From Fervidobacterium changbaicum (GTDB taxonomy: Bacteria > Thermotogota > Thermotogae > Thermotogales > Fervidobacteriaceae), in contig NZ_CP026721.1 in assembly GCF_004117075.1 (NCBI RefSeq), positions 1-64,000 on the forward strand: a DNA stretch of 64,000 nucleotides, written 5' to 3'. Shown one piece after another: positions 28,427-32,581 of this stretch (position 1 is its first letter; each line of letters begins with the position of its first letter). The translations under genes and the position numbers were made by a program. The notes below the pieces were generated by a model. That model was not told the origin of the DNA. It saw nothing but the letters and a program-made list of their open reading frames with translations, and ran no database searches.

Positions 28427-28936
28427 TTAGAATTCAACAAAGGCGGACTTAGGAGCTCCGCACACAGGACATTTTTCAGGTGCTTCATCTTCCGTCGTAT
28501 AACCGCAGACTGAACAGATGTAAATCTTCTCAGCCTCGTAATCTTTTCCTTCATTCACAAGATTAAGCGCCTTCTTATACATTTCTGCGTGAATCTTTTC
28601 CGCTTCAAGAGCGTAGTGAGTACTGATTTGAGCTTCCTTTTCCCCCTGCAGTTTAGCTGTTTCGTTGTAAACGGGATACATTTCTTCTACCTCGAACGTT
28701 TCACCGGCTATACAAGATTGAATATTTGCTGGATTATCCCCCAACTTCTTGAGCGCCTTAAAGTGGTTTCTTGCGTGCACAAACTCTGCATAAGCAATAG
28801 CCTTAAAAAGGTTTGCTAATTTCTTTAAACCGGACTTCTCAGCCTCATCGGCAAAGATCAAATACTTCATGTGTGCCATAGACTCGCCTGCAAAAGCATC
28901 TTCCAAGAACTTTTTCGTCATATCCCTCATGTTCAC
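28427..28936 (-). CDS. rbr: Rubrerythrin
   Basis: 169 residues. The N-terminal ferritin-like domain carries the diiron ligands, with glutamates in EDAFAGESMAHMKY and EFVHARNH and a second pair in ALEAEKIHAEMY. The C-terminal rubredoxin-like domain has ICSVCGYTTE and CPVCGAP. It reduces hydrogen peroxide. The ATG follows GGGGAGGTG. An IS6-like element begins 18 bp upstream of the ATG, cutting the gene off from whatever lay upstream, originally the PerR-like gene on the same strand. Confidence 0.95.
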   Translation of the reverse strand: MNMRDMTKKFLEDAFAGESMAHMKYLIFADEAEKSGLKKLANLFKAIAYAEFVHARNHFKALKKLGDNPANIQSCIAGETFEVEEMYPVYNETAKLQGEKEAQISTHYALEAEKIHAEMYKKALNLVNEGKDYEAEKIYICSVCGYTTEDEAPEKCPVCGAPKSAFVEF

Positions 28937-28954: not shown

Positions 28955-29012
28955 GATACTGTTAACTAAAAGTATTGAAACTTTCCAAAAACCGCATTAT
29001 CCTTATAAAGAG

Positions 29013-29052
29013 GGGACACCCCCCAACCAACTCTCGACAAAGGAGGTATCCC
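29013..29052 (+). promoter_or_regulatory. Hairpin over the transposase ribosome binding site
   Basis: GGGACACC (29013-29020 region) can pair with GGTATCCC (29045-29052), with one mismatch, covering GGAGGT just before the ATG at 29056. The counterpart in the 16.8-kb element uses TGGA/TCCA where this one uses GGGA/TCCC, a compensatory change. Confidence 0.5.
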
Positions 29053-29055
29053 GAT

Positions 29056-30006
29056 ATGAACAACTCAACGCTCTCTTGTCCAAAATGCGGTTCCACCAGC
29101 TTATACAAAAACGGTCATGACAAATACGGTAACCAACAATTCCTTTGCAAACTCTGCCATCATTCTTTCAAACTCTCCCATTCTCACAAACGCAAAAACT
29201 TCTCTTTCCCTTATCCCAAATGCACTTCTTGTGGTAAATCTATGCAAATTTACAAAGTCCGTCGCTCTTTCGTTGTCTTCCGTTGTAGAGCTTGTCGTAC
29301 CAAAGATAGAGTACCTTTTAACCTCCCCGAACCAGTCACCCTTATTCCTGAGAAATTTAAATATTTCCGCTTCCCTATCTTTTTCGTCTTAAAGGCTTTC
29401 GTTTTGTATATGAAACACAATATGTCTTATCGCTCTCTTGCTCATTCTCTTAATATCAAAGTATCTCATGTCACCATATACAAATGGGTTATTAAATTGT
29501 GTACTTTATTCTCTGTACTTTTTCCAACATTTACCATCGAAAATGTTTTCTCAGTTCATGCTGATGAAACTGTTCTTGTTTTCAAAGAACAAAAGTACTA
29601 TGTTTGGCTATTAGTTGATCACGAAACTAACTTAATTCTTTGTTGGCATGTCTCAAAGTATCGTGATATGGGACAAGTCAAAGTATTGCTCGAGAAGTTC
29701 TTTGGTAATTCAAAACCTAGAAACATTGAACTTATTACTGATGGACTTGGTGCATATGAAAGTGCAGTAAAGCTGTTGTTCAGAAATATCAATCACGTAG
29801 TGGTACCGCTCGGTAAAAACAATCAATGTGAATCCAAGTTTTCATTGTTGAAAGACTTTTTCCGACTCAAGCGAGGGCTGAAGAATACGAAGAATTTAGC
29901 GAAATATATTCAAGGATTTTGTGTAGTGAAGAATCTTTGGAAAACGCACAATGGTAATATCAATCTCATTCTTTCACACTTACACTCTTTCATCACTACA
30001 AGTTAA
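29056..30006 (+). CDS. IS6-like DDE transposase
   Basis: 316 residues with the same plan as the enzyme at 16921: two zinc-finger pairs (CPKCGS...CKLC; CTSCGK...CRAC), a recognition helix region (RSLAHSLNIKVSHVTIYKWV), and the DDE residues in HADETVL, TDGLGAY and QCESKFS. It has an extra short insert before the first Asp (FTIENVFSVHADE). It looks intact. ATG follows AAAGGAGGT; the in-frame ATG at 28975 lies in the terminal region. Confidence 0.92.
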   Translation: MNNSTLSCPKCGSTSLYKNGHDKYGNQQFLCKLCHHSFKLSHSHKRKNFSFPYPKCTSCGKSMQIYKVRRSFVVFRCRACRTKDRVPFNLPEPVTLIPEKFKYFRFPIFFVLKAFVLYMKHNMSYRSLAHSLNIKVSHVTIYKWVIKLCTLFSVLFPTFTIENVFSVHADETVLVFKEQKYYVWLLVDHETNLILCWHVSKYRDMGQVKVLLEKFFGNSKPRNIELITDGLGAYESAVKLLFRNINHVVVPLGKNNQCESKFSLLKDFFRLKRGLKNTKNLAKYIQGFCVVKNLWKTHNGNINLILSHLHSFITTS

Positions 30007-30013
30007 CACTATC

Positions 30014-30021
30014 GAAATTTA
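30014..30021. repeat. Right target-site duplication of the second IS6-like element
   Basis: GAAATTTA, identical to 28947-28954, directly after the right inverted repeat. Confidence 0.9.
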
Positions 30022-32347: not shown

Positions 32348-32429
32348 AAAAAACAAACGTGTGCACGCCCGTGGCGTGCACACAACAGTATAGAGACAGC
32401 TCCCACCTATCCCCAGTACCCCCATTACT
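32348..32429 (-). ncRNA. Candidate small RNA with its own promoter and terminator
   Basis: On the minus strand TTGACA (32465-32460) and TATACT (32441-32436), 18 bases apart, form a strong promoter with no reading frame behind it. About 70 bases on, an 11-bp stem GTGTGCACGCC/GGCGTGCACAC (32383-32359) runs into GTTTGTTTTTT, a standard terminator. The transcript would be roughly 80 nt. Its first half is G-rich, with GGGGG, GGGG, GG and GGG in close order, which could form a G-quadruplex. It does not resemble 6S, SRP, RNase P or tmRNA. It fills the otherwise empty gap between cysK and spoVS. Confidence 0.65.
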
Positions 32430-32581
32430 GCTCATAGTATATCACTTCAGCACGTACCATGTCAAATTTTCCACGATTGTTGTTTCCAAAATTTTCTTCT
32501 TTGGCTTAAATAAATAACTTTGACAACTTTCACTGTTTTCTATGTTGTTCTGCTCCAAACCCAGGCGTTTGCAAAAAGAAT

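Follow-up and report, generated by a model that had tools for sequence, protein, structure and literature searches.

The closest described counterparts of the RNA reported here are G-rich decoy RNAs of the Firmicutes. RosA of Bacillus subtilis, a sponge of RoxS and FsrA, is a processed RNA of ~229 nt with three G-rich regions (PMC8216469). For RsaI (RsaOG) of Staphylococcus aureus, the RosA paper, in the part that deals with it, describes two G-rich regions that bind the C-rich RNAs RsaD, RsaE and RsaG, together with a C-rich region for mRNAs, and proposes the decoy logic for this RNA too (PMC8216469). The ncRNA repertoire of Thermotoga maritima has been described as poor, and the 13 putative examples reported lack a definable structure (PMC3636130).

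Sequence comparison indicates that the window (the whole 64-kb stretch of DNA analysed) contains a genuine and conserved Fervidobacterium gene for a small RNA (Table 1). The minus-strand promoter TTGACA-18-TATACT, the G-rich 5′ part and the 11-bp terminator named in a preliminary description of this DNA were all confirmed, and the dimensions of the RNA were corrected to ~78 nt with a terminator beginning ~45 nt past the probable start (start inferred 7–8 nt past the −10 hexamer, end placed in the T-tail). The G-rich part comprises runs of G5, G4, G2 and G3 (32423–32401, minus strand). Folding of the whole RNA gave z = −4.8 relative to shuffled sequences, with the terminator contributing most, and in the folding model the RNA is a mostly single-stranded G-rich 5′ part followed by a 3′ hairpin. 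Like RosA, the predicted RNA stands alone, with its own promoter and terminator at the sequence level, and has an unpaired G-rich region complementary to two C-rich sRNAs of the same genome expected to act at ribosome-binding sites; unlike RosA, it has one compact core within ~78 nt, belongs to another phylum and has a predicted function. It shares with RsaI the stand-alone organisation and the opposition of G-rich to C-rich sRNAs, but has no match to the Rfam family of RsaI (RsaOG).

Table 1 Features of the predicted G-rich sRNA gene in the window.
Feature	Position	Strand	Remarks
Predicted G-rich sRNA, ~78 nt	32349..32428	-	promoter and terminator; homologues in 8 other genomes
-35 hexamer TTGACA	32460..32465	-	identical in 8/8 compared genomes
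-10 hexamer TATACT, TG one base upstream	32436..32441	-	TATACT in 7/8; TAAAAT in G013
Invariant G-rich core GGGGGTACTGGGGATAGGTGG	32403..32423	-	20/21 columns invariant, nine sequences
GGGGATAGG, perfect 9-nt complement of CCUAUCCCC (CR-A and CR-B)	32406..32414	-	
GGGGGTACTGGGG, perfect 13-nt complement of CR-C element	32411..32423	-	
Intrinsic terminator hairpin, stem GTGTGCACGCC	32358..32384	-	11 perfect pairs and one outer pair, 3-nt loop
Terminator T-tail TTTGTTTTTT	32348..32357	-	
Upstream box GTTGTC-N14-ATGCGG (AAGCCA in window)	32502..32527	-	may be a regulator site

AT-rich DNA often contains promoter-like sites, and a promoter and terminator that arose by chance, or a cis element serving the adjacent genes, might produce a similar picture. 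Such sites are indeed common in the window (16 in 5 kb; 11.5 ± 3.4 for shuffled sequence), so that conservation is needed to decide. A DNA search of 61 relatives recovered the promoter-to-terminator segment in seven of the eight other Fervidobacterium genomes and in one genome of the sister genus (G013), and promoter, 18-nt spacing, core and terminator are present in all nine sequences from these nine genomes, in four gene settings, with the −35/−10 spacer exactly 18 nt in all eight compared genomes. With every part conserved at exact spacing in four settings, the chance or cis explanation is contradicted and scarcely credible. The promoter and hairpin conservation in related genomes on which the preliminary description had made its proposal depend is thus present. 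The remaining Fervidobacterium genome (G002) and a further genome of the sister genus (G009) have contigs that end within or immediately upstream of pyrC, at the expected site of the gene, and absence there is therefore uninformative.

The 21-nt core, GGGGG[U/C]ACUGGGGAUAGGUGG, has a single variable position, and a pattern search that allowed up to two mismatches in 103 genomes of the class confined the core to the same genomes, bar two matches with two mismatches each. Between core and terminator, sequence and length both differ among the genomes; the terminator stem GTGTGCACGC retains all 11 pairs in every sequence, with one compensatory change from C-G to U-A and one change from C-G to U-G. 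The window has no Rfam match to the G-rich RNA at gathering scores, and the homologous loci gave nothing at E ≤ 1 except chance matches elsewhere, in agreement with the earlier view of a new small RNA outside Rfam. An ATG frame beginning at the core lacks conservation, its ATG being absent from G001, G003 and G005, and the frames past the core diverge; a peptide was therefore rejected and the RNA is taken as non-coding. Candidate homologues beyond the genus and its sister genus were also rejected: weak model matches (L148–L158) are coding sequence or other terminators, and an exact core-pattern match in an unrelated GC-rich genome lies inside a coding sequence resembling a glycosyltransferase. 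A string similar to the core, TCTGGGGATAAGTGG, within apparent 23S rRNA of three genomes is of the same sense, non-complementary and not general, and was regarded as coincidence; a 9-bp self-pairing of the core with a downstream segment in the window genome (G000) was discarded because that segment is not conserved.

In three genomes (G000, G004 and G008) the gene is flanked by spoVS and cysK, in two (G006 and G007) by the divergent pyrimidine operon (pyrC-K-D-F) and cysK, in three (G001, G003 and G005) by the pyrimidine operon and other genes, and in G013 by that operon and an acetate-kinase-like gene (neighbour names, except cysK, cysE and spoVS, were assigned by inspection of translations). 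Six of the nine copies thus adjoin the pyrimidine operon, and in those six genomes spoVS is located elsewhere. An upstream box, GTTGTC-N14-ATGCGG, occurs at fixed spacing in at least seven genomes beside differing divergent genes, and is not enriched elsewhere. Retention of the RNA gene and this box while the neighbours change indicates a stand-alone gene, and conservation in four gene settings points to selection on the RNA and not on the neighbourhood. The pyrimidine operon itself has a leader upstream of pyrC (L047, L049, L050 and L051) with a PyrR-box-like GGTCC.G.GAG.CC and a terminator, for which Rfam reported nothing at E ≤ 1.

The spoVS/cysK setting, correctly noted for the window genome, is accordingly not general, and this bears on the earlier suggestions that the G-runs may form a quadruplex and that the neighbouring SpoVS, a nucleic-acid-binding protein, may be relevant. 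Four G-runs within 23 nt and an adjacent spoVS in three genomes would fit a G-quadruplex RNA read by SpoVS or another binding protein, but spoVS is not adjacent in six of nine genomes, and synteny lends SpoVS no support as a partner. The runs of G001, G003 and G005 are G5, G4, G2 and G2, which permits two tetrads at most; neither four runs of at least three G (the runs are 5, 4, 2 and 2–3) nor a stable quadruplex was found, folds with quadruplex energies switched on containing none at 37 or 65 °C. Since the linkers between the runs are also as conserved as the runs themselves, we consider a quadruplex highly improbable.

Target search by complementarity, which the preliminary description had put forward, led to C-rich sRNAs, a complementarity that it had missed. 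A search of the nine genomes for complements of the core returned chance matches in or antisense to genes, plus a recurrent motif, CCCCCTATCCCC, most sites of which belong to two stand-alone genes for C-rich RNAs, each with a promoter-like sequence and a terminator, here called CR-A and CR-B. One or both, mostly both, occur in all nine genomes of the genus, and CCCCCUAUCCCC is common to the two. CR-A, ~70 nt in predicted length, has the layout AGAGAACCCCCUAUCCCCCUUGAGAUACACCCCCCACGGCUUUAUGCGGG-loop-CCCGC-U(n), is nearly invariant over ~50 nt within the genus and consists of the core CCCCCUAUCCCCCUUGAGAUACACCCCCCACGG and a terminator (loci L268–L297 and L335–L352; G000:C1:1944524-1944590, minus strand). 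A CR-A model matched 88 of the 103 genomes of the class Thermotogae (E ≤ 0.05), with a C-rich core nearly letter-for-letter identical across the order; the C-rich core and terminator were seen in nearly all of 18 mostly distant matches that were read, the match in G042 being doubtful as its second C-run is missing. CR-B, ~80 nt in predicted length, has the layout GCAGCGACCCCCCUAUCCCCCCUUGGAAGAGUUG, a hairpin and then a CCGGGGG terminator, carries CCCCCCUAUCCCCCC (loci L298–L321) and was found by model search across the whole family and in some members of the order. A third C-rich element, CR-C, was seen only in G000, G004 and G008 and comprises C-rich ACCCCAGUACCCCC (element CCCCAGTACCCCC) followed by a terminator-like hairpin (loci L257, L266 and L267); in G004 and G008 it lies downstream of a small gene.

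At 14 CR-A and CR-B loci no Rfam family was matched at E ≤ 0.5, including RsaE/RoxS and FsrA, and the CR-A and CR-B sequence strings were not found in the literature text searched. These RNAs resemble RoxS/RsaE and FsrA in being C-rich and expected to cover G-rich Shine-Dalgarno sites, but differ in their own C-run layout, CCCCCUAUCCCCCUUG, and in their class-wide spread in Thermotogae. The predicted CR-A family is much older than the G-rich RNA and runs through the class Thermotogae, and a class-wide family of this kind is a larger surprise than the G-rich decoy.

The CR-A gene of the window genome (L330, G000:C1 ~1943400–1944600) is split by a 1,060-bp insertion sequence between the C-rich part and the terminator. 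The insertion sequence is identical to window positions 28955–30014 and is flanked by an 8-bp target duplication, GCTTTATG. The same contig, from ~2222858 to its end (~43.5 kb), appears to repeat window positions 1–44560 without the insertion sequence, which most likely reflects an untrimmed circular overlap, with the insertion polymorphic in the sequenced population, and not a duplication. A HEARO RNA (RF02033; L249:546-750, minus strand, E 1.9e-32) lies near the CR-B gene of this genome.

The invariant GGGGAUAGG of the G-rich RNA complements CCUAUCCCC of CR-A and CR-B perfectly over 9 nt, and the GGGGGU upstream of it is able to pair with CR-A's second C-run (ACCCCC), both run pairs being in the right order; GGGGGUACUGGGG pairs at 13 of 13 positions with CR-C in three genomes. 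The 9-nt complement occurs nowhere else in the window, where 0.12 occurrences are expected. The variable positions in or near the core (U/C at column 12, G/A at column 28) fall outside the 9-bp pairing. Among 31,982 36-nt segments from both strands of the window ranked by duplex energy, the G-rich sRNA was the best partner of both CR-A (−37.6 kcal/mol, z −7.8; next −31.8) and CR-B (−33.8 kcal/mol, z −7.1; next −29.6). At 65 °C the CR-A duplex retains −19.5 kcal/mol, and the G-rich core alone is unstructured. Because the C-rich RNAs were found via the complement search, the complementarity itself is not independent evidence. Owing to the G-rich make-up, 12% of dinucleotide shuffles of the RNA matched CR-A perfectly over 9 nt, 8% matched CR-B and 4% matched both, and duplex energies of shuffled sequences were as good or better in ~3–22%. 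A clean enrichment figure is precluded because the control pattern, read backwards, also fits the C-rich motif. Pairing with CR-A accounts only partly for the invariance of ACU and the terminator stem.

The same complement search bears on whether the G-rich part might instead pair with C-rich sites in mRNAs, the match to the C-rich sRNAs being incidental. A 5′ seed with a 3′ terminator is the ordinary architecture of a trans-acting sRNA, and genic complements exist (for example, 13 of 15 positions in a flgK-like coding region of one genome). Near-full mRNA complements are, however, not common to several species, most matches are antisense to genes, in rRNA or due to chance, and the conserved complements are stand-alone RNAs, and we regard direct mRNA pairing by a conserved trans-acting sRNA as unlikely.

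The G-rich RNA also contains two GGA motifs, GGGGAUA and GGUGGRA, and in this it resembles CsrA-titrating RNAs of the CsrB/RsmY type, raising the alternative of a protein-binding decoy, most likely for CsrA, with one GGA placed in a weak hairpin loop (YACU-GGGGAUA-GGUG). All genomes of the genus encode CsrA, both motifs are kept though the second shifts by one base, and the U/C change preserves the hairpin. Set against this, genera that lack the G-rich RNA possess CsrA to the same extent, the hairpin of most species has a predicted stability of about −0.5 kcal/mol at 37 °C and none at 65 °C, and 20 invariant bases exceed the need of GGA binding. Several GGA motifs in stable hairpin loops, as in the CsrB/RsmY type, were not found: only two, 8–9 nt apart, are present, few for a titrating RNA, and no stable stem-loops present them. 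A CsrA decoy therefore has at best a slim chance.

A link to translation is suggested by spoVS, whose ribosome-binding site CAAGGAGGAUAGG fits the CR-A motif CCUAUCCCCCUUG in 12 of 13 positions; across the genus the site ACAAGGAGGAUAGG persists with slight variation (GGACAGG in G006, AAUAAGG in G008). This fit to a conserved site leads us to read CR-A and CR-B as Shine-Dalgarno-covering RNAs and the Shine-Dalgarno-like G-rich RNA as their decoy. The top predicted CR-A target among the 61 window genes is the start region of a rubrerythrin-like gene, AAGGGGAGGTGTGAACATG (28427–28936, minus strand; −20.6 kcal/mol), a score that a strong Shine-Dalgarno sequence alone could explain. In the proposed mechanism, the sRNA gene would be transcribed from its own sigma-70-type promoter to its own terminator, and GGGGAUAGG of the G-rich RNA would bind CCUAUCCCC of CR-A and CR-B. 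These would use their shared C-rich stretch to cover Shine-Dalgarno regions such as that of spoVS, and the G-rich RNA, resembling such a site, would occupy them and so relieve repression of their targets. The G-rich RNA is, in our estimation, probably a stand-alone, non-coding, trans-acting decoy (sponge) for C-rich sRNAs. The comparisons made, chiefly with Rfam, gave no sign of homology to RosA or RsaI, and the RNA would work like them by analogy. G-rich decoy sRNAs are known as a kind, and what is new is a member in another phylum.

CR-A is class-wide; the G-rich RNA is confined to Fervidobacterium and its sister genus, a narrower range, so that most carriers of CR-A do without it. About evenly balanced, in our judgement, are the chances of the wider proposal of a class-wide Thermotogae system, in which a nearly invariant anti-Shine-Dalgarno RNA, CR-A, acts with CR-B, and Fervidobacterium has independently evolved a dedicated G-rich decoy against both, convergent with RosA and RsaI of the Firmicutes, in a deep-branching phylum of thermophiles whose best-studied species was described as ncRNA-poor. 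To our knowledge, very little has been learned about the small regulatory RNAs of Thermotogae. Together, a strictly conserved CR-A and a G-rich counterpart specific to one lineage would amount to a riboregulatory system in hyperthermophiles that can be tested; if the proposal is true, G-rich decoys directed at C-rich sRNAs have evolved repeatedly, and one must ask how duplexes of such short RNAs control translation at 65–80 °C.
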